Shown here: in pieces, positions 1,892 through 29,095 of the stretch | Layout of the letters: every line of letters begins with the position of its first letter | Position numbering within the stretch: the stretch's first letter is position 1 | DNA from: Halococcus salsus | GTDB taxonomy: Archaea > Halobacteriota > Halobacteria > Halobacteriales > Halococcaceae | Length of the DNA: 64,000 nucleotides | NCBI RefSeq assembly: GCF_009900715.1 | Contig: NZ_JAAAJC010000001.1 | Span: 485,216-549,215 of the forward strand | Direction of reading: 5' to 3' | Notes under the pieces: model-generated | Told to the model about the DNA's origin: nothing | The model's input: only the letters and a program-made list of their open reading frames with translations | Databases searched by the model: none | Position numbers and translations under genes: made by a program

Positions 1892-3172
1892 TCAGGGCCA
1901 GAGGCCGCGCGCGCCGTGAGCCGCACCGACGCGTCGGAGCCCGACGATGTAGGCGGCCTCGCGCCACGTCGCGCCGTCGTGGGTCTCGAACGCCTCGCGG
2001 ACGTCGTTCCACGCCGACACCATCTCGTCGTCGAGCTCCTCGTTGACCTCCTCGACCGGCCACGCGCGCCGGTTGATGTCCTGGAGCCACTCGAAGTACG
2101 ACACCGTGACCCCGCCCGCGTTGGCGAGGATGTCGGGGATCACGGGGATCCCACGTCGGTTGAGGATCTCGTCGCCGTGGGTCGTCGTCGGTCCGTTCGC
2201 GCCCTCGACCACGATGTCGGCGCGCACGTCGTCGGCGTTGTCGGCGGTGAGGACGTTGCCGATCGCCGCGGGGATCACCACGTCGACGTCGAGTTCGAGC
2301 AATTCGGCGTTCGAGAGCGTATCCGACGCGCCGTCACCCGAGACCATGCCGGGCTGTTCCTCGTGTGAGATCACCGCCTCGGTGTCGAGGCCTGCGGGGT
2401 CGTAGATCCCGCCGTCGACGTCCGAGACCGCGACGACGTTCGCGCCGTACGAGTCCAGCAGCCGGGCGGCGTTCGCACCGACGCTCCCGAAGCCCTGGAT
2501 CGCGACCGTGGTCTCGCCGATGTCGCGGTCGTAGTAGTCGAGCACCTCGCGGGTGATGATCGCCGCGCTCCGACCGGGGGCCTCCTCGCGACCGTAGCTC
2601 CCGCCGACGACCGGCGGCTTGCCCGTGACGACGCCGGGGATGGTCTCGCCCTCCTGCATCGAGTAGGCGTCCATGAACCACGCCATCTCGCGGCTCCCGG
2701 TGCCCATGTCGGGTGCGGGGATGTCCCGCATCGGGCCGATGACGTTGCGCAGCTCCTCGGCGAACCGGCGGGTGAGCTGTTCGATCTCACCCTCCGAGAG
2801 GTCCTTGGGGTCGACCACGATACCCCCCTTCCCGCCGCCGAAGGGGATGTTCATCACCGCACACTTCCAGGTCATCCACATCGAGAGGCCGATGCACTCC
2901 TCGGCGGTCACGCCGGGGTGGTAGCGGAGCCCGCCTTTGAACGGCCCGCGCGCGCTGTCGTGCTGGGCGCGATATCCCCTGTAGACCTCGGTCTCGCCGT
3001 TCTCGCGTTCGATGGGGACCGAGACTCGATGGACGGACTTCGGGTGTTTGAGCCGTTCGACGGTACCGGGGTCGACGTCGATGTACGCCGCGGCGCGGTC
3101 GAGCTGGCGGCGGGCGGTGTCGGCTGCGGTCTCGAACGGTTCGTCGGTTTCGGGTGGGGCTGTCGTGGTCAT
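1892..3172 (-). CDS. gdhB: Glutamate dehydrogenase (second paralogue)
   Basis: Complete 426-residue glutamate dehydrogenase. Motifs: [13 protein letters not shown] (about 75-87), [10 protein letters not shown] with the catalytic lysine K116, [11 protein letters not shown] (about 153-163) and the dinucleotide loop GFGSVGAN (227-234). The acidic stretches are typical of halophilic enzymes. It is upstream of, and in the same direction as, the CitE-like gene (39-base gap) and the truncated dehydrogenase. A tandem pair of such different paralogues suggests separate cofactor preferences or catabolic versus anabolic roles, which cannot be assigned here. An AT-rich bidirectional promoter region lies 90 bases upstream, shared with the MaoC gene. 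Confidence 0.95.
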
Positions 3173-21393: not shown

Positions 21394-21718
21394 CCCGTCG
21401 ATTCGCCGTCGACCGATCCTCCCGTCCCAACGCCCGCAGCGACCGCCGTACGGGGCGTCCCGTAGCGCACTTTTGCCGGGGCCGTCACGAGGTGTCGACG
21501 GATGAGCCACCTACACGCTCTTCCCCGAACGATATCGGAAGAAATCAGAATATTCTATCTATTTTCGTCGAATTACAACCGAGTACGGCGACCGTATGAT
21601 TCCTTCGAAGGCTTTTTGCTGTGGCATACGCCAACTACGAAGGTGACGAGTGTAAGATACACAGCGATCTGCCCGGATCCAACGCCTCCGTTCCGGTATC
21701 GTGGTCGGGGGGACGGGG
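21394..21718. other. 325-base intergenic region with an AT-rich island
   Basis: About 21540-21680 is visibly richer in A/T than the rest of the window (attctatctattttcg). A ten-base perfect palindrome, ccttcgaagg, at 21602-21611 is followed directly by a T-run (21613-21617), which looks like an archaeal terminator. A short open frame covers part of it but has no coding character. The last 30 bases should carry the nadE promoter, though no strong TATA box stands out. A small RNA ending at the T-run is possible but unsupported. Confidence 0.4.
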
Positions 21719-22612
21719 ATGATTAGCGCGGTCGACCGCCTCCCGACCGCGTCGTTCACGACCGACGAGGCGGGGCTTCGATCGCACGCGGAGCGCATCG
21801 AGGCGTTCATCGCCGAGACGGTCGCCGAGGCGGGAGCCGACGGGGTGGTCGTCGGGATGAGCGGCGGGGTCGACTCGACGCTGACCGCGACGCTCGCGGT
21901 CGAGGCGCTCGGCTCCGACCGGGTGACGGCGCTCGTGCTCCCCTCGCTCGGAAGCGGCGACCGCCACATCGAGGACGCCGAGGCGGCCGCGGCGGCGCTC
22001 GGGCTCGACGCGACCACGGTCGGGATCCGGCCGCTGGTGGACATGTTCGAGGACGTGGTCGCTCCGCAGGTCGGCGACGACACCGACGACCCCGCGCTCG
22101 ACAACGCCACCGCCCGGCTCCGGATGACGTGTCTCTACTACGCCGCCAACCACCTGGGTCGGCTCGTCGTCGGCACCAGCAACCGGACCGAACTCCTCTG
22201 TGGCTACTGCACCAAACACGGCGACGCCGCAGCCGACCTCCGGCCGCTCGCCGGGCTCTACAAGACCGAGGTCCGCGCGCTCGCGAGCCAGGTCGGCGTC
22301 CCCTCCCCCATCATCCGGAAACCCTCGACCGCCGACTTCCGACCGGGACAGACCGACGAGGCCGACCTCGGTGCGCCCTACGGTCTGCTCGACATCATCC
22401 TCCACGAACTCGTCGACGAGAACCTCGGGATCGAGGGCACCGCCGACGAGCTCGGCCTCGACCCCGAGACCATCGCGGACTACGCCGACCGCCACCTCGA
22501 CAGCCGTCACAAACGCCGGCAACCGCCGAGCCCCTCGTTCGAGCGGTCGCTGGAGGGCGAGCTGTTCCACGAACTCGAACACACGACGGACCGGTCGGAG
22601 ACCCGGAGTTGA
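21719..22612 (+). CDS. nadE: NH3-dependent NAD(+) synthetase
   Basis: 297 residues. It amidates nicotinic acid adenine dinucleotide to NAD using ATP and ammonia. The ATP-pyrophosphatase P-loop SGGVDST is at residues 48-54, VVGTSNRTELLCGYCTKHGD (landmark; substrate loop) follows, and RKPSTADFRPGQTDE is the family late motif. No glutaminase domain is present, so free ammonia is used. The start MISAVDRLP was preferred over one six codons upstream. It completes NAD synthesis together with nadM at 55161-55712. Confidence 0.95.
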   Translation: MISAVDRLPTASFTTDEAGLRSHAERIEAFIAETVAEAGADGVVVGMSGGVDSTLTATLAVEALGSDRVTALVLPSLGSGDRHIEDAEAAAAALGLDATTVGIRPLVDMFEDVVAPQVGDDTDDPALDNATARLRMTCLYYAANHLGRLVVGTSNRTELLCGYCTKHGDAAADLRPLAGLYKTEVRALASQVGVPSPIIRKPSTADFRPGQTDEADLGAPYGLLDIILHELVDENLGIEGTADELGLDPETIADYADRHLDSRHKRRQPPSPSFERSLEGELFHELEHTTDRSETRS

Positions 22613-22621
22613 CGGGACCGA

Positions 22622-22894
22622 CTACGACGACTGTCGGTCGCTCCAGGCCGAGCGGGCCTGCCTCGCGGCGGGGATCACGACCCAGAAGGTGAGCGCACCG
22701 AAGATCGCGAACCAGAACAGCGCCTCGCGGGTGGTGAGCGCGATCCCGCCGTAGAGGCTCCCGAGGTCTGGCGAGGGGGCGATGAGCTGGGTGGTGCTCT
22801 CGAAGCTCTCGGTGTTGTACCAGCTCGAGAGAACCAGCCACCCGAACAGCCCGCCACAGAGCGCGAAGAAACCCTTGGCGAATTCGTCACTCAT
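22622..22894 (-). CDS. Small membrane protein at the end of the bc-complex operon
   Basis: 90 residues with two membrane helices (FFALCGGLFGWLVLSSWY near the start and ALFWFAIFGALTFWVVIPAA near the end) and a periplasmic-type loop between them. The C-terminus is basic. It matches a short haloarchaeal family seen beside cytochrome b genes (DUF7314-like, from memory). The start overlaps the previous gene's stop by 8 bases, so it is translationally coupled to the cytochrome bc operon. It is likely an accessory subunit or assembly factor. Confidence 0.78.
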   Translation of the reverse strand: MSDEFAKGFFALCGGLFGWLVLSSWYNTESFESTTQLIAPSPDLGSLYGGIALTTREALFWFAIFGALTFWVVIPAARQARSAWSDRQSS

Positions 22895-23228
22895 TCGTGA
22901 AGGATTCGTCGCCATCGTCTTGACTGTTTCCCATCCCCGGGGTCCGAAACCGCGTCCCGAGAACGTAGATCCCCGCACCGAACCCGATCAGAGCGAGCCC
23001 GAGGAGGGCGAGCACGAGCGAGACCACGCCCTCGGTCGAGACCCCGAGCGAGCTCAGCACGACCGCGAGCGGACCGACCTCGGCGGTGGCGGCGTCGAGG
23101 AACCCGAAGCCCGCGATCACGAAGCCGACCGCGAACAGGGTCGAGAAGACGGTGATGGCTTTGTAGACCCGGAGCGGGACCGTGATCTCGCGTGGGCCAT
23201 CGGAACGGGAGGTGTCGGTTCGGCTCAC
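22887..23228 (-). CDS. Membrane protein of the bc-complex operon
   Basis: 113 residues with two predicted helices (AITVFSTLFAVGFVIAGFGF, about 25-44, and VVSLVLALLGLALIGFGAGIY, about 68-87). A polar N-terminus and an acidic C-terminal tail flank them. It follows the cytochrome b C-terminal half by only four bases. It resembles a haloarchaeal family found in this operon (DUF7315-like, from memory). No cofactor ligands are evident; an accessory role is inferred from position alone. Confidence 0.78.
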   Translation of the reverse strand: MSRTDTSRSDGPREITVPLRVYKAITVFSTLFAVGFVIAGFGFLDAATAEVGPLAVVLSSLGVSTEGVVSLVLALLGLALIGFGAGIYVLGTRFRTPGMGNSQDDGDESFTNE

Positions 23229-23232
23229 GACC

Positions 23233-24054
23233 TCAGCGCGGCGGGCGGAGCCGGTAGTACCGTCGGTTGAGCTCGTACATGTAGCCCTCGCGCATCGTCC
23301 GCAACACCGCGTAGGTGATGAATCCCGCCACGAACGGCAGGAGGAACGCGAGGTCGAACAGGAGGTGGCTGTCGATCCACGTCGGGACGAGGTTCTTGAC
23401 CGCGAGCGCGCTGATCATGATGGCGAACACGACGCCGAACACCCCGACCGACGCCCAGAACGGCTGCTCGACGGGCCGGCGCGCGCTCCCCTTGTTGAGG
23501 AAGGGCACGATCGCGATGATCCCGACGACCACGAGGTTCGCGAGCACGCCGAAGGTGGAGTCCTGCATCAGCTTCTGCCCACCGAGCACGGCGAGCTCGG
23601 GGTTGAGCGGCCCGAGTTTCAGCAGGCCGAACGACCAGTAGAGATACCAGTCGGGCAGGATGATCGCCGGGGTCGTGCTCGGGTCGGCCGGCGGGGCGAT
23701 GTGCGGCGGGAGCGCCGCCGCGAGGAAGAAGATCATCCCCACGAAGAAGCTAGTCAACGAGAGGTTGCGGATCATCTCGTGGGGCCAGGTCGGGAAGGCC
23801 AACACGTCGCGCTCGACGTAGCTGGAGTCGGTCCGGAGGTCCTGGTCCTCGCGGCGCGAGCGCTCGAAGTACTCGTAGGTCAGCCGGGGCAGGCCCTGGC
23901 GGCGCTCCTTGCGCTCGCCCCACGTCGGCGTCTCGTCGTCGGGCGCGACGATCCCCGCGCCGTCGGCCACGGGGTCGGGTCCCGTCTCGGTGGTCGCTTC
24001 GTGCTCGTCGTCGGGTCGGTGCTCGGCGTCGTCGGTGGTGCTGTCTCGGGTCAT
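23233..24054 (-). CDS. Cytochrome b, C-terminal half (subunit IV-like)
   Basis: 273 residues. About 100 residues of acidic N-terminal extension lead into the subunit IV fold of cytochrome bc/b6f complexes. AIILPDWYLYWSFGLLK contains the PDWY quinol-site motif (variant of PEWY). Four membrane helices follow, and the C-terminus is basic. Together with the upstream gene it makes a split cytochrome b, as in b6f complexes. The start codon overlaps the preceding gene's stop (TAATG). It acts in the cytoplasmic membrane, oxidising menaquinol. Confidence 0.92.
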   Translation of the reverse strand: MTRDSTTDDAEHRPDDEHEATTETGPDPVADGAGIVAPDDETPTWGERKERRQGLPRLTYEYFERSRREDQDLRTDSSYVERDVLAFPTWPHEMIRNLSLTSFFVGMIFFLAAALPPHIAPPADPSTTPAIILPDWYLYWSFGLLKLGPLNPELAVLGGQKLMQDSTFGVLANLVVVGIIAIVPFLNKGSARRPVEQPFWASVGVFGVVFAIMISALAVKNLVPTWIDSHLLFDLAFLLPFVAGFITYAVLRTMREGYMYELNRRYYRLRPPR

Positions 24055-24848
24055 TAGTGTGGCTCCGCGATCCCCTGCATCCAGACGATCCCGATGTGGA
24101 CGGCGATCAGGCTCGTCACCACGAACGGGAGGAGGAAGACGTGGAGGATGTACATCCGCATCAGGGTGGCCTGGCTCAACGCGAACCCGCCGAACAGGAG
24201 CTGGGCGACCCACTCACCAACGAACGGGATGCTCAGGCTCATCTCGACCCCGATCTGGCCCGCCCAGTAGGAGAGCTGGTCCCACGGCAGGAGGTAGCCG
24301 GTGTAGCCGAACACCATCGTGAGGCTGATCAGGACGATCCCGAGGATCCAGTTGAGCTCGCGGGGCTCCTTGTACGCCCCGGTGAAGTAGACCCGGAGCA
24401 TGTGGAGGAAGACCGCGGCGGTCATGACCTGGGCCGACCACCGGTGGAGGCTTCGGAGCATGAACCCGAAGTTGAGGTCGGTCATGATCATCGTGATGGA
24501 GGCGTAGGCCGCCGAGGGATCCCCTGCAGTGGCGGGGGCGTAGTAGAACCCGAGCAGCGCGCCCGAGAGCGCCGCGACGATGTAGGCGATGGTCGAGAAG
24601 CTCCCGAGCGCGTAGAGGGGATACCAGTACCAGAACTTGTTGTCGAGGTTGTACTGTTCGGTGTGGCTCTTCGGGAGCTGCATGTTGACCTTGTAGTAGA
24701 GGTTCTCGAGGATCTCGAGGTAGTCGACGATCCGTAGCCGCTTGTCGAGCCAGAGCAACACCGTGAGGTAGGTCTCCTCGATCGGGGTCAGCTCCTTGCC
24801 CTCCATCCAGTCGGCGTGGTCACCCTCGTCGCGGGGTTCGAGGCTCAT
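24054..24848 (-). CDS. Cytochrome b, N-terminal half (b6-type)
   Basis: 264 residues with four core helices and the four haem-b histidines. HRWSAQVMTAAVFLH has 13 residues between the first pair. HVFLLPFVVTSLIAVH has 14 between the second pair, the spacing typical of b6f-type cytochromes. GYTGYLLPWDQLSYWA is also typical. About 75 extra N-terminal residues are cytoplasmic. It carries electrons from quinol to the Rieske protein encoded just upstream, whose stop overlaps this start. The menaquinone substrate is known for haloarchaea but not read here. Confidence 0.95.
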   Translation of the reverse strand: MSLEPRDEGDHADWMEGKELTPIEETYLTVLLWLDKRLRIVDYLEILENLYYKVNMQLPKSHTEQYNLDNKFWYWYPLYALGSFSTIAYIVAALSGALLGFYYAPATAGDPSAAYASITMIMTDLNFGFMLRSLHRWSAQVMTAAVFLHMLRVYFTGAYKEPRELNWILGIVLISLTMVFGYTGYLLPWDQLSYWAGQIGVEMSLSIPFVGEWVAQLLFGGFALSQATLMRMYILHVFLLPFVVTSLIAVHIGIVWMQGIAEPH

Positions 24849-25753
24849 TCGCCCTCACCCGAACTGGTGCCCTCCGAGCCGCCCTCTTCCTCCTCGCCCA
24901 CGTCGTCCGGCCGTGGGAGCGCGGTGAACTGGATGCGCTCGATGCTGAAGGGGTCGTAGGCCGACTGGTGACACGGACAGTAAACCTCGTTCGCCGCGCC
25001 GAAGCGCGCGCTCTGGTCCGAGGACTTGAACCCGGGGACACAGCAGAAGTGGGTGCACTTGTTGAGCCACGCGATGAACCCGTCCTGGGTGCTCGCGTTC
25101 ACCCACTGGGCGTTCTCGCCACCCGAGGCGAGCTCCTCGATCCGGGTGCTCCGGAGGACCTGTACCGGGATCGTCTCCTGCGGGGAGAGGTCCTGGGAGC
25201 GCCAGGTCGCCATCGCGGGTTTGCCGACGCCGGCGGTCCCGATCTCGTTGTTCCAGGTCTCGTAGTCCTCGAAGTCGCTGACGTTGAGCCGGTCGCCGGC
25301 GCTGAGGTCGCTCATCCACTCGTAGCTCGACGACTCCGCCACCCGGAAGAAGTTGTCCTGGTCGGCGTCGGGGACGAGCCCCGGGTAGGTCTGGACCCCA
25401 CAGTACTGGAACCACTCGCTGGAGTAGGTGTAGCCACCGAGCTGGCTCTGGGCGGTGCTGACCTGCTCGCCGTTGACCGTCCGGGTTCGAACTTCGGGCC
25501 AGACGCCCTTCAGGTAGCCCTCGTCGTCGATCTCGATCGGGATCTGGGGCATCGGACGCGGGGCCGGCCCCGCGGTGTTCTCGATCCCGAAGTACTGGGT
25601 CGCACCACCGCCCTGTCCGGACGAGGAGGTGGTGAGCTGGATGGCGGAGGCACCCGTGATGCCCGTCGCGCCGAGCGCCGAGGCACCCACGACGCCCTTC
25701 ACGAACCGCCTGCGTCCCGATTCGGATGGATAGTTGTCTTCGTCGTCTGGCAT
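24845..25753 (-). CDS. Rieske iron-sulfur protein
   Basis: 302 residues. The Tat-type N-terminus (SGRRRFVKGVV, residues 12-22, then a hydrophobic stretch) anchors it at the outer face of the membrane. The [2Fe-2S] site is split between NKCTHFCCVPGF (Cys and His ligands plus a disulfide Cys) and YCPCHQSAYDPF. The last 20 residues are a Glu/Gly/Ser tail. Its stop overlaps the cytochrome b start (ATGA). It passes electrons from quinol to the soluble or anchored halocyanin encoded upstream. Cys in place of the usual Gly at CTHFCC is a mild oddity. Confidence 0.95.
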   Translation of the reverse strand: MPDDEDNYPSESGRRRFVKGVVGASALGATGITGASAIQLTTSSSGQGGGATQYFGIENTAGPAPRPMPQIPIEIDDEGYLKGVWPEVRTRTVNGEQVSTAQSQLGGYTYSSEWFQYCGVQTYPGLVPDADQDNFFRVAESSSYEWMSDLSAGDRLNVSDFEDYETWNNEIGTAGVGKPAMATWRSQDLSPQETIPVQVLRSTRIEELASGGENAQWVNASTQDGFIAWLNKCTHFCCVPGFKSSDQSARFGAANEVYCPCHQSAYDPFSIERIQFTALPRPDDVGEEEEGGSEGTSSGEGE

Positions 25754-25755
25754 GG

Positions 25756-26145
25756 TTATCGCTTGTAGTAGGGGTGGATCGCGCGCTTGATGCTCTCGGT
25801 CATCCCCTCGGAGGTCGCGCCGACCCCGTCGACCTGGTCCTCGCGGATGTAGAGGTCCTCCCACTTGCGCCGGCGTTTCTTCACGATCATCACGTCGGGG
25901 AGGAACTCCTTGCGGTAGAGCAGGAGGATGAACGCGAGGTCGATGAACACCACCGCGAGCACGCCGCCGAGGAACATGTTGCCGAGCTCGATGGTGCCCC
26001 AGCCGTTGATCAGCCCGTAGGCGAACAGCCCGACGAAGACCACTTCGACCAGCGTCAACAGCACGATAGCGATCGCGGCCGCGGTGCTCTCGCGGGCGGG
26101 TTCGTAGCGGTGGATGTCGCCGTAGGAGCTTCCGGAGGAGGACAT
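25756..26145 (-). CDS. Two-helix membrane protein of the bc-complex operon
   Basis: 129 residues. The two helices are IAIVLLTLVEVVFVGLFAYG (about 26-45) and FLGGVLAVVFIDLAFILLLY (about 58-77). A long basic cytoplasmic segment with KKRRRKWEDLY follows and the protein ends RAIHPYYKR. It lies between halocyanin and Rieske genes with gaps of only 1-2 bases. The match is to a haloarchaeal family (DUF7318-like, from memory). The conserved basic C-terminal half suggests interaction with a cytoplasmic partner or with the complex. Confidence 0.8.
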   Translation of the reverse strand: MSSSGSSYGDIHRYEPARESTAAAIAIVLLTLVEVVFVGLFAYGLINGWGTIELGNMFLGGVLAVVFIDLAFILLLYRKEFLPDVMIVKKRRRKWEDLYIREDQVDGVGATSEGMTESIKRAIHPYYKR

Positions 26146-26146
26146 C

Positions 26147-26707
26147 TCAGTTCCCCCGCTTCGCGTTGGGCGATTCGCCGTACTTCACGAGGAAGAAGGT
26201 GTAGACGAGCGAGACCGCCATCATCAGCAGGGTCGCGATCCCGACGAAGTGGGCCTGGATCGGCACTCCCATCTCCTCGGGGTCGACCTCGGTCGCGGCG
26301 GCGCTGGCGCTCGCGCCGCCCTCCTGGACGATGACGGTACCGACCATGCCGACCCCCTCGTGGGGCGCACAGTGATAGGGGAACTCGCCGGCCTCCGAAA
26401 AGGTGTGACTGAAGGTGATGTCGTCGCCGTCCTCGGGGGGGCCGGAGTTGAACGCGCCGTCGTCGGCGACGACGTTGTGCGCGCCGCCCTCGCCGGTCCA
26501 CTCCCACGTCACGGTGGTCCCGGGCGCGACGGTGAGTTCCTCGGGGTCGAACGACAACCCCGACCCCGAACCCACCGCCACCGTCTCCGAGCCACCGCCA
26601 CCCCCGCTTGCGTTGCCGCCGCTCTCTTGGGCGGCGACGGTTCCGGTGGCGGCGGCTGACCCGCCCGCGACGGCGCTCGTTGCCACCAGGAAATCCCGCC
26701 TGTTCAT
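26147..26707 (-). CDS. Halocyanin (membrane-anchored blue copper protein)
   Basis: 186 residues. A Tat signal (MNRRDFLVATSAVAGG) precedes a low-complexity linker and a plastocyanin-like domain. Copper ligands are His in GAHNVVADDG, then Cys, His and Met in YHCAPHEGVGMVG. A C-terminal membrane helix (HFVGIATLLMMAVSLVYTFF, about 150-169) adds a second anchor, unusual for a soluble carrier. It is first in the bc operon, so electron flow quinol to cytochrome b/Rieske to halocyanin is encoded together. The start was set at the Tat motif; an in-frame start ten codons upstream is less likely. Confidence 0.93.
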   Translation of the reverse strand: MNRRDFLVATSAVAGGSAAATGTVAAQESGGNASGGGGGSETVAVGSGSGLSFDPEELTVAPGTTVTWEWTGEGGAHNVVADDGAFNSGPPEDGDDITFSHTFSEAGEFPYHCAPHEGVGMVGTVIVQEGGASASAAATEVDPEEMGVPIQAHFVGIATLLMMAVSLVYTFFLVKYGESPNAKRGN

Positions 26708-26733
26708 ACGTGATCGACCACAGGGCCGGGCTC

Positions 26734-26742
26734 GCATAAGTC
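26734..26742 (-). promoter_or_regulatory. TATA box of the halocyanin/bc operon
   Basis: On the minus strand, gacttatgc lies 27-35 bases before the ATG at 26707, consistent with a leaderless transcript for the whole seven-gene bc operon (halocyanin to 22622). Confidence 0.55.
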
Positions 26743-26765
26743 CACCGGATACGGATATTCGGTCG

Positions 26766-27647
26766 CTACGCCGACGGGACCGAGTCGTCGGTTTCCTCGG
26801 CGTGGCTCGCGGGGTCGGTACGCGGGTCGTCGGCCCCTGCAGGCCGGTCGGATCTACCGTCCTCGTTGCCGTCCTTGTCCCCGTCGGCCGCCGAAGGCGG
26901 TTCGCGGTATCGCGCCGGCAGGAACTCGGGGCGGTCGTCCGAGCCGATCGCGCGGAGTCGGTTGCGGTACTCCTCCGACCGGAATCGGTCCGAGAGCCGT
27001 GCGTTCGCGACCTGGAGGAAGAGCAGGAGGGAGAGTCCGACGAAGATCATCCCGGCCACGGGGGCGAAGATGGTTTCGACGGGAACGATCACCCACGCGA
27101 GAACGAGCCCCACGCCCGTGAGAAACTGGGCCGCGGCCACGACCTGCAACATCCGGTTGCCGAGTTCGCCGGTTCCCTCGGGGACGTCGTCGGGGTCGGG
27201 AAGCAGCTCCCCGTCCGGCGGCGGCGTCGGGATATCGTAGTCGTGCATCGAACACAGCGCGACGGTCGGTTTCACGTCCCGAAGCACGGTCCCTCGTCCC
27301 TCGACGCTTCCATCGGGGTGGACCACCGCGTAGCCCTCGTCGGAGTACGCGAGCAGCCCGTCGTCGACGCGTTCGAGCCGGGCGAAGACGTCCCGGTCGG
27401 CGATCCGGCTCCGGAGGTCGGCTTCGACCCGACGGAGGAGTCCCTCGCCGGTGATCCACGTCTCGGCGTCGAACGTCGCCTCCCACTCCGCTTCGCTCAT
27501 CTGGGCCATGTCGCTCGGGCCGAACGAATCGAAGTCGTAGCGCTCGGCGACCTCCTGTCGGAACTCCTCGTCGGTGTCGGCGGCACGAACGTCGGCCTCG
27601 TCCGGGTCGTCGGCCCCGCCCGCTGACGGTGGTCGGGAGTCGGCCAT
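26766..27647 (-). CDS. Acidic membrane-anchored protein next to the bc operon
   Basis: 293 residues. An acidic cytoplasmic domain of about 160 residues (EEFRQEVAERYDFDSFGPSD... MHDYDIPTPPPDGE, landmarks only) is followed by two membrane helices (VVAAAQFLTGVGLVLAWVIV and IFAPVAGMIFVGLSLLLFLQ). A highly acidic tail ends the protein. It is read in the same direction as the bc operon, 58 bases upstream of its promoter, and resembles a family that travels with it (DUF7319-like, from memory). A regulatory or assembly role is conjecture. Confidence 0.78.
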   Translation of the reverse strand: MADSRPPSAGGADDPDEADVRAADTDEEFRQEVAERYDFDSFGPSDMAQMSEAEWEATFDAETWITGEGLLRRVEADLRSRIADRDVFARLERVDDGLLAYSDEGYAVVHPDGSVEGRGTVLRDVKPTVALCSMHDYDIPTPPPDGELLPDPDDVPEGTGELGNRMLQVVAAAQFLTGVGLVLAWVIVPVETIFAPVAGMIFVGLSLLLFLQVANARLSDRFRSEEYRNRLRAIGSDDRPEFLPARYREPPSAADGDKDGNEDGRSDRPAGADDPRTDPASHAEETDDSVPSA

Positions 27648-27702
27648 CGACTCGCGTAGGTCGCGGGCGGGGTTAGATGTTGCGACCGGGACGGGTTCGG
27701 CA

Positions 27703-27712
27703 AGGCTTTAGC
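27703..27712 (+). promoter_or_regulatory. TATA box for the divergent membrane protein gene
   Basis: aggctttagc lies 23-32 bases before the ATG at 27735, matching other leaderless promoters in the window. Confidence 0.55.
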
Positions 27713-27734
27713 GCCCACGCGGTGGAGGTCGTGT

Positions 27735-28220
27735 ATGCTGGGGCTGACCGACGCGGCGATGGCGACGGTCGCCGCGGTCGCGGTCACGGTCAGCTTTCCG
27801 TGCTTTCTCTACGGCGCGTGGATAATGCTCGAAGCCGAAGCCGTCACGTGGAGCGTGCTCACCTACCACCTGAAGTTCATCGCCGTCGGGCTCACGCTCA
27901 CCACGGTGCCGCTGGTGGGTTGGATGCTCCCCCGCCTCGGCGACCAGCTCGGTGGCGCGTCGGTACTCCACGCCTTCCTCGGGCTCCAGGCCTACGCGAT
28001 GCTGGCGTTCGGTTTCACGGGGATCGTCCGGATCTTCCGGGCGAAGCGCGAGCACAACCTCTATCACGACTACGACGAGGACGTCCTCCTCTCGGAGATC
28101 GGCTCCGAACGGATGGACCACTGGCGGGGGCGGCTCCGGATCGGGGTCTTCGGCTACGTCCTGTTCTGGGTGCTGGCCTACCTCGTCGGTATCGCACGCT
28201 ACGCGCTCCGATACCTCTGA
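27735..28220 (+). CDS. Four-helix membrane protein divergent from the bc cluster
   Basis: 161 residues. Hydrophobic segments include VAAVAVTVSFPCFLYGAW, LKFIAVGLTLTTVPLVGWML, AFLGLQAYAMLAFGFTGI and RIGVFGYVLFWVLAYLVGIA. Several His residues lie near helix ends (YHLKF, LHAFLG, HNLYHDYDED), which could bind haem or a metal, but no firm motif is seen. It is divergent from the acidic membrane-anchored gene and probably belongs to the respiratory cluster (DUF7321-like, from memory). Confidence 0.75.
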   Translation: MLGLTDAAMATVAAVAVTVSFPCFLYGAWIMLEAEAVTWSVLTYHLKFIAVGLTLTTVPLVGWMLPRLGDQLGGASVLHAFLGLQAYAMLAFGFTGIVRIFRAKREHNLYHDYDEDVLLSEIGSERMDHWRGRLRIGVFGYVLFWVLAYLVGIARYALRYL

Positions 28221-28411: not shown

Positions 28412-29095
28412 TCACCACGCCTCGCCGCTCGCGAGGTCGACGGCCGAGTCGAGCGTCGAGGAGGGACAGATGTCTTCGAGCACGCAGTCCTCACAGTCGG
28501 GGTTTCGCGCGGTGCAGGTCGCGCGGCCGTGACTGATGAACAGATGTGTCGAGAGCTGCCAGCGCTCCTCTGGGAACAGATCCATGAGTTCGCGCTCGAT
28601 CGTCTCGGGTCGGTGTTCCTCTGTGAGTCCGAGCCGGCGCGAAAGGCGCTGGACGTGGGTGTCGACCACCACACCCTCGACGACGTCGTGGGCGTGCTGG
28701 AGCACGACGTTCGCGGTCTTCCGACCGACTCCCGGGAGCTCGGTGAGCTCGCCCATCGTGTCGGGCACCTCCCCGTCGTGCTCGTCGACGACCAGCTGGG
28801 CCGATTCGCGGATGTAGCTCGCCTTGTTGTTGTAGTACGTGATGGAGTTCAGCGCTTCGGCGAGTTCCTCCTGCGGTGCGTTCGCGAACGCCTCGGGCGA
28901 GGGATAGGTCTCGAAGAGGCTCTCGGTGGTCTCGTTCACCCGTTCGTCGGTACACTGCGCCGAGAGGATCACCGCGACGAGGAGTTCGAATCGTGTGGAG
29001 AAGTCGAGCGAGATGGTGGTGTCGGGGTACTCGGCTTCGAGCCGGTCGAGCACCGCCGTGGCCTGGGCCTCGCGCGAGTCGAGCGGGGTTCCCAT
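28412..29095 (-). CDS. nth: Endonuclease III (DNA glycosylase/AP lyase)
   Basis: 227 residues. It removes oxidised pyrimidines and cleaves at abasic sites. The helix-hairpin-helix and catalytic Lys are in LPGVGRKTANVVLQHA, and the catalytic Asp is in VVVDTHVQRLSRRLGL (D of VDTH). The [4Fe-4S] loop has four cysteines in C-TARNPD-C-ED-C-VLEDI-C near the C-terminus. Length and order match the family. The gene stands alone. It has 192 bases of featureless sequence downstream of its stop, towards the membrane protein gene. Confidence 0.95.
   Translation of the reverse strand: MGTPLDSREAQATAVLDRLEAEYPDTTISLDFSTRFELLVAVILSAQCTDERVNETTESLFETYPSPEAFANAPQEELAEALNSITYYNNKASYIRESAQLVVDEHDGEVPDTMGELTELPGVGRKTANVVLQHAHDVVEGVVVDTHVQRLSRRLGLTEEHRPETIERELMDLFPEERWQLSTHLFISHGRATCTARNPDCEDCVLEDICPSSTLDSAVDLASGEAW

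Follow-up and report, generated by a model that had tools for sequence, protein, structure and literature searches.

Which of the uncharacterised membrane proteins encoded around a haloarchaeal respiratory complex belong to that complex, and what could they contribute to it? The question is raised by nine genes at positions 22622-28220 of a 64,000-nucleotide stretch of Halococcus salsus DNA (contig NZ_JAAAJC010000001.1, positions 485,216 to 549,215; this whole stretch is called the window). Eight of them lie on the minus strand, in the transcription order DUF7319, halocyanin, DUF7318, Rieske iron-sulfur protein (petA), N- and C-terminal halves of cytochrome b (bN and bC), DUF7315 and DUF7314, and the ninth, DUF7321, is divergent on the plus strand. 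A previous sequence-only reading of this DNA had placed five small uncharacterised membrane proteins at 22622, 22887, 25756, 26766 and 27735, and had taken their co-location to suggest subunits, assembly factors or a quinol-site adaptor. We consider it probable that the module encodes a quinol:halocyanin oxidoreductase with a split b6-like cytochrome b, no c-type haem, a detached hairpin and a permuted Rieske protein; the main new point relative to the earlier reading is the apparently permuted Rieske protein in a module with the detached hairpin and a copper acceptor.

All five open reading frames (ORFs) are present, and each product falls into an unnamed Pfam DUF family, far above the cut-off of 27 bits that applies to each of the five; the NCBIfam scan gave no named family above cut-off for any of them, and the five family names were not found in the literature searched. 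The positions given earlier were right, except that for the four minus-strand genes they mark the low (3') ends, and the description of all five proteins as small fails for DUF7319, which has 293 residues and one clear membrane helix by hydropathy. The earlier assignment of three of the five to one tight operon is borne out by the spacing for DUF7318, DUF7315 and DUF7314: there is a gap of 1 base between halocyanin and DUF7318 and of 2 between DUF7318 and Rieske, an overlap of 4 between Rieske and bN and of 1 between bN and bC (TAATG), a gap of 4 between bC and DUF7315, and an overlap of 8 between DUF7315 and DUF7314. DUF7319 is separated from the next operon gene by a 28-base gap, and DUF7321 is divergent. 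The promoter scan found none, and terminators were at the shuffled level, the patterns used being bacterial.

The gene order was compared in loci found by a bN scan of GTDB representative contigs; the set comprises the best 80 of 480 relatives, 76-91% identical, and is biased to near relatives. The order is conserved in other haloarchaea, a check that had been proposed with the earlier reading, and no violation of order or strand occurs in the 80 loci. Both bN and bC are found in all 80, halocyanin and DUF7318 in 79 each, DUF7315 and DUF7314 in 77 each, DUF7319 in 74, DUF7321 in 70 and Rieske in 59. Many of the misses are due to short contigs or contig ends; locus L021 is without all five DUF genes and halocyanin, with just 834 bp remaining downstream and 7 kb upstream. 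Genes are missing despite apparent room in L041 (DUF7315, DUF7314 and DUF7321), L077 (DUF7315 and DUF7314) and L083 (DUF7321). In the 21 loci without Rieske, which where the genus is named belong to Haloplanus, Halobellus, Haloferax, Halogeometricum and similar, DUF7318 abuts bN directly (median gap, 6). DUF7319 and DUF7321 are placed less tightly than the other module genes, DUF7321 being up to 2.6 kb distant from the rest. The gene for NadE (21701-22612) has no match in any of the 80 loci.

If the five proteins are dedicated to the complex, they should be inherited with it. DUF7318 was found in 110 of 155 genomes of the class, and we compared 77 genomes, namely all 45 DUF7318-negatives and 32 of the 110 positives, picked for family and genus spread. 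The window-type bN, petA, DUF7315 and DUF7314 are each present in 32/32 positive and 0/45 negative genomes, and DUF7319 and DUF7321 in 31/32 and 0/45; where DUF7321 and DUF7314 both occur (31 genomes), they cover 4.7-7.4 kb of a single contig. In five of the 45 negatives the only cytochrome b is a distant, full-length one, and these genomes have none of the five DUFs by Pfam cut-off. Thus, the DUF families track the window-type complex and not any cytochrome b. Four families of genomes (f2, f3, f4 and f10) each contain complex-positive and complex-negative members, so that more than one loss or gain of the whole block must have taken place. A published account has complex III missing from about a third of haloarchaea, especially Natrialbales (PMC8305020).

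The alternative is that the five DUF proteins are mere neighbours, or general membrane-stress or transport proteins in the operon, with none of them in the complex. Such bystanders do exist here: the endonuclease III gene nth (28412-29095, minus strand; TIGR01083, 241.9 bits) adjoins the module in 64 of the 80 loci and is plainly no subunit, and DUF7321, divergent and at times 2.6 kb off, could be read in the same manner. However, nth occurs in 77/77 genomes, whereas all five DUFs follow the complex across the same genomes (bar one for DUF7319 and DUF7321), both states being found within each of the four families. Thus, adjacency alone is a weak argument, and it is co-inheritance that sets the DUFs apart from the bystander; we regard the neighbourhood explanation as highly doubtful. 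Two points weigh on the other side: genome G021 is the sole complex-positive genome without DUF7319 and DUF7321, and the genomes are related, so that 32 and 45 do not count independent events. The dedication of the five DUFs to this complex is nevertheless strongly supported, and this much of the earlier claim stands, with the subunit role as a putative one. The outgroup locus L125, described below, also has a relative of nth (2245-3099) close to its operon.

The Rieske gene (24845-25753, minus strand) encodes a protein with a Tat-type (twin-arginine translocation) start, RRRF. In canonical Rieske proteins a GPAPR-type Pro loop sits after the cluster boxes. In petA the Pro loop and the final strands are not C-terminal to the boxes, the segment being located before them: residues 50-83 apparently correspond to the canonical C-terminal segment, and residues 153-270 to the canonical base and cluster segment. 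In the 40 aligned petA proteins GPAPR near residue 62 is invariant, the boxes C-T-H-F-C-C and C-x-C-H-Q-S are near 233 and 259, and the chain ends soon after, mostly with ALPRP; C233, H235, C238, C259, C261 and H262, the cluster ligands and disulfide cysteines, are invariant in 40/40. Two more cysteines, residues 118 and 237, beyond the cluster boxes, are likewise invariant (40/40); Cys118 lies within WFQYCG, matching WYVYCG of L125, and a second disulfide is possible.

The swapped order is also seen in profile comparisons. A hidden Markov model (HMM) of eight canonical Rieske proteins from a second haloarchaeal complex matches petA as two swapped pieces in 39 of 40 sequences (HMM 188/195-216 at petA 50-81 and HMM 90/150-190 at petA 153/221-270), the protein of locus L065 being without the first piece. 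When the window protein is divided, residues 41-110 alone match QcrA at 284-304 (E 9.9e-6) and residues 111-302 alone match TIGR01416 at 62-148 (E 7.5e-10). The front of petA reads GPAPRGMPQIPIEI...EWFQYCGVQ, that is, WxxYCGV after the GPAPR segment, while in the L125 Rieske, which has the canonical order, GGPAKRALPQIPIKI...DWYVYCGVDVE closes the chain and the boxes stand ahead of it. Rotating the petA alignment raised the best single alignment to the L125 protein from 31.2 to about 41.5 bits (breakpoints 90-220) and extended it from 139-189 to 139-222. The permuted form was observed in a Marine Group IV locus (L063), in L067, a locus of like type, and in G021.

The AlphaFold model of petA has a confident globular part (predicted local distance difference test, pLDDT, 81), and all 24 rows of the VIA-align comparison are Rieske chains, the best being Corynebacterium glutamicum QcrA (Z 5.2, 125 residues, root-mean-square deviation 4.2). 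The bovine Rieske fragment 1rie is covered just from 70 to 177; a sequential aligner would omit the last strands of a permuted protein. The standard Rieske model PF00355 misses the window gene in a search of the genome; the window protein scores 14.9 bits, under the cut-off of 20.3, and 34 of 40 petA proteins match at E 1 or better.

From these data petA is apparently a circular permutant, in which the canonical C-terminal segment sits right behind the Tat anchor and the base fold and boxes come after it; the Pro-loop remnants at both ends would fit a tandem duplication followed by trimming. One could instead assume that petA is unpermuted, with the canonical order and a shortened C-terminus (ALPRP), the N-terminal GPAPR being either an extra copy or a Pro-rich stretch that arose by convergence. 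The position of ALPRP at the canonical place of the Pro loop, so that the motif is seemingly at both ends, and the alignment of the bovine protein as far as residue 177 speak for this, but the match of the N-terminal segment, at canonical 284-304, takes in both the Pro loop and the strands behind it, and the WxxYCGV motif trails the segment both in petA and in the canonical-order L125 protein, making an unpermuted petA quite improbable. Several results tell against a permutation: rotation gives no gain against the eight canonical second-complex proteins (about 11 bits either way), the Z score of the petA model is modest, at most 5.2, and Foldseek with this model gave no match at E 0.001 or better. 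We also put forward, as a tentative proposal that we hold somewhat less likely to be right than wrong, that a natural Rieske permutation became fixed in haloarchaea earlier than the split of Marine Group IV, that it was accompanied by the detached hairpin and the disappearance of every covalent haem c, and that the head is tethered via its former C-terminal end. A literature search, in which off-topic matches were judged by title or start of abstract and which did not extend to Baymann et al. 2012, found no report of a circularly permuted Rieske protein. Second copies of the permuted form, not linked to cytochrome b, were seen at G012:C1:1399936-1400778, G016:C17:96690-97538 and G003:C1:103847-104224, the last being the cluster half alone.

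Immediately before petA lies DUF7318 (25756-26145, minus strand), a protein of 129 residues (PF24002, 240.4 bits) consisting of a two-helix hairpin and a strikingly conserved tail, YRKEFLPDVMIVKKRRRKWEDLY. The profile NF050121 of actinobacterial QcrA is matched, weakly, by all 43 aligned DUF7318 members at E 0.1 or better (best E 3.2e-5), the window protein aligning with positions 19-106 of 319; none of DUF7314, DUF7315, DUF7319 and DUF7321 matches it at E 1. A canonical Rieske of the second complex (locus L087) covers positions 121-315 of that profile (E 5.5e-34), so the hairpin and the Rieske protein tile QcrA. In addition, a motif after the helices, F-L/I/M-P followed by V and RR, is common to DUF7318 and the hairpins of the second complex, all encoded just before a Rieske gene. 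Hence DUF7318 is probably, judging from these profile matches, the transmembrane hairpin of a QcrA-type Rieske protein, inserted by the general secretory (Sec) pathway and encoded as its own gene, and of the five proteins it is the one for which a specific role can be supported. In the Streptomyces Rieske protein helices 1-2 are described as inserted via Sec and helix 3 via Tat, with a highly conserved loop between (PMC5449189). The detachment of the hairpin would let each part use one export pathway, Sec or Tat.

The likeness to the QcrA hairpin might also be a generic two-helix similarity of an unrelated small subunit. In favour of this are the low scores, the E values of 0.001-0.002 that some members give with other families, and the hairpin of L125, which has no NF050121 match at E 1, only PF19297 at E 0.034; the consistency of the match over 43/43 members, its absence from the other DUF membrane proteins of the module and the motif common with the second-complex hairpins make a chance resemblance rather unlikely in our view. 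The L125 result also counts against the assignment of DUF7318 as a QcrA-type hairpin, as do the lack of an NF050121 match for the hairpins of two second-complex loci and the score of the window protein, 22.4 bits against a curated cut-off of 275. Further, the pairing with Rieske is not universally tight, the Rieske gene being distant and DUF7318 still beside cytochrome b in 12 of the 32 genomes (G006, G009, G014, G017, G019, G022, G026, G040, G042, G063, G066 and G021). A search of the Protein Data Bank (PDB) with the DUF7318 profile gave PsbH as the best match (E 0.16) and a QcrA chain in fourth place (E 1.6), which we did not count as evidence beyond the common motif.

Hairpin genes related to DUF7318 are found directly 5' of Rieske and cytochrome b genes in other complexes as well, including that of locus L132 and two outgroup loci. 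Nine weak second matches of DUF7318 led to a second Rieske/cytochrome b complex, which Baymann and co-workers are said to have linked to nitrate in 2012. In all seven fetched loci there is a hairpin gene, a canonical Rieske and cytochrome b in that order, and in G089 the weak match lies about 1 kb upstream of the cytochrome b gene; the ninth match (G063:C5) falls in a flippase-like ORF and was dismissed as chance. The genome of the window itself has such a complex (L132, 4005-6769, in G000:C6), with a hairpin, a canonical Rieske and a full-length cytochrome b, and a halocyanin gene closely downstream (2343-3014). Its hairpin matches DUF7318 at E 0.018, PF19297 (QcrA_N) at E 0.018 and NF050121 at E 0.0014. 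Genomes with the second complex and without the window-type complex have none of the five DUFs by Pfam cut-off.

Scanning the phylum (246 genomes) with the petA alignment gave 28 matching genomes within the order and, beyond the class, a single partial match, in G349. The operon of this genome, L125, comprises a cytochrome c that is anchored in the membrane by its C-terminus (PF00034, 49.3 bits; NF050122 QcrC, E 1.1e-7), a DUF7318 protein (PF24002, 40.8 bits, above cut-off), Rieske, bN and bC. Its bN is 48.5% identical to the window bN across 268 residues (268 BLAST bits), and phmmer gives it 277.8 bits to the window bN versus 152.2 to the best PDB cytochrome b6. A third lineage (L131, in G446) has the same order, with a c-haem-motif protein carrying a membrane helix, a hairpin (PF24002, E 0.0028), a canonical Rieske, bN and bC. 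As a separate observation, bC of L125 (6096-7067) is extended at its C-terminus by a ferredoxin-like tail; this tail contains two clusters of CxxCxxC type, its best matches are QmoC and HdrC, and electrons could possibly enter or leave directly through it on the cytoplasmic side.

With these outgroups the c-type haems can be followed. The bN gene of the window (24054-24848, minus strand; PF00033, 159.9 bits) encodes a b6-like half with two haem-b histidine pairs, and bC (23233-24054, minus strand; PF00032, 38.1 bits) a subunit IV-like half with four helices and the quinol-oxidation (Qo) motif PDWY; the best PDB match of bN is cytochrome b6 (165.8 bits). In 81/81 sequences the first histidine pair is 14 positions apart, the second 15, and PDWY is present; the 15-position pair has the b6f-type extra residue. 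The b6f-type spacing of 14 residues reported earlier is right for the second pair if the residues between are counted. At the site of haem cn the haloarchaeal bN has no cysteine, reading YALG, YTLG, YSLG or FALG in 80/81 (L072 differs), within YWYPLYALG or variants of it, and 77 of the 81 contain no cysteine whatever. The outgroup bN of L125 retains one, in YPFYCLGG, where b6f has its haem-cn cysteine.

The acceptor slot is occupied by cytochrome c in L125 versus halocyanin in haloarchaea. The halocyanin gene of the window (26147-26737, probable start 26707, minus strand) specifies a Tat signal and a conserved C-terminal membrane anchor; the protein belongs to the plastocyanin family PF00127 (60 bits) and scores 92.2 bits with TIGR03102, under the cut-off of 93.8. 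Since the cysteine of bN is gone and halocyanin stands in the slot of cytochrome c, the haloarchaeal branch seems to have lost both c-haem sites and, with them, both covalent haems. A similarity between the anchors of halocyanin and of the L125 cytochrome c (E 0.0033, with the L125 ORFs as the only database) is suggestive and was not counted.

The remaining four proteins fall into two pairs. DUF7315 (22887-23228, minus strand; 113 residues, GTG start, two to three hydrophobic helices; PF23997, 121.7 bits) and DUF7314 (22622-22894, minus strand; 90 residues, two hydrophobic helices; PF23996, 117.6 bits) are the last genes of the operon and are kept even in the divergent G021. They stand at the operon end, are present in all 32 positives and were not found in L125, therefore being probable added subunits; most likely they would be small supernumerary subunits gained in the haloarchaeal line, so that for this pair the earlier suggestion is plausible. 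DUF7319 (26766-27647, minus strand; PF24003, 309.5 bits), with an acidic soluble domain and a C-terminal membrane helix, and DUF7321 (27735-28220, plus strand; 161 residues; PF24007, 263.1 bits) would most likely be dedicated accessory proteins with an assembly or regulatory role.

For DUF7321 another function may be imagined, as a haem-b protein in itself, a four-helix bundle similar to cytochrome b561 that exchanges electrons with the complex. Its invariant residues include His44 and His78 (41/41), Lys103 and three arginines, its AlphaFold model is a four-helix bundle (pLDDT 86), and cytochrome b561 (4o7g) appears in the VIA list with Z 9.3. The match is, however, unspecific, as it stands amid unrelated helical bundles with scores up to 12.1, and Foldseek with the model gave no match at E 0.001; we consider a haem-carrying DUF7321 distinctly unlikely and prefer the accessory role.

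Combining these parts, we propose that the Qo site with its PDWY motif would oxidise menaquinol, passing one electron via haems bL and bH to the quinone-reduction (Qi) site and the other by way of the Rieske cluster to the membrane-tethered halocyanin and on to a terminal oxidase, with halocyanin in the place of the c-type cytochrome of the relatives. DUF7318 would be the N-terminal two-helix hairpin that is fused to Rieske in actinobacterial QcrA; the hairpin, inserted by Sec, and the Rieske domain, exported in folded form by Tat, would travel apart and join in the membrane. Gene content and order, co-occurrence, the order of the boxes and the loss of the cysteine are observed here, whereas the physical assembly, the electron path, the division between Sec and Tat and the roles of DUF7314, DUF7315, DUF7319 and DUF7321 are deduced.

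Complex III ranks among the best understood energy converters, and in its textbook mechanism the Rieske head swings on a hinge and delivers electrons to a c-type haem. If the head is permuted, the hinge for its movement between quinol and acceptor must be replaced, and another component, perhaps the tethered halocyanin, would do the moving in electron bifurcation. With its head tethered at the opposite end, its hairpin in a subunit apart and copper in its acceptor, the haloarchaeal complex would then be a natural experiment on the essential parts of the mechanism; by detaching the hairpin, evolution would also have got round the difficulty of producing one protein through both Sec and Tat. The permuted order would also explain why the standard Rieske model misses the window gene, and five orphan families gain a defined system.

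Among known systems, the module is the same complex III as the haloarchaeal petABD (HVO_2620, HVO_0842 and HVO_0841), which is said to resemble b6f; the portions consulted of that account mention neither the DUF proteins nor a permutation (PMC8305020). With cytochrome b6f (PetB, PetD, PetC and cytochrome f) the haloarchaeal complex has in common the split cytochrome b and the 14/15 histidine spacing, but it differs by the absence of the haem-cn cysteine, by four predicted helices in bC, by halocyanin replacing the c-type cytochrome and by the PDWY motif. The second haloarchaeal complex is similar in having the hairpin gene directly before Rieske, whereas its own Rieske has the canonical order and its own cytochrome b is unsplit. 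In the actinobacterial bcc complex (QcrC-QcrA-QcrB; NF050121/PF19297), with the gene order qcrCAB, there is likewise a Rieske protein with a two-helix hairpin ahead of a Tat-dependent anchor and a membrane-anchored electron acceptor encoded upstream; in the haloarchaeal complex, by contrast, the hairpin is a separate ORF (2-base gap), a copper protein stands as the acceptor, cytochrome b comes in two halves and the Rieske segments appear to be swapped.

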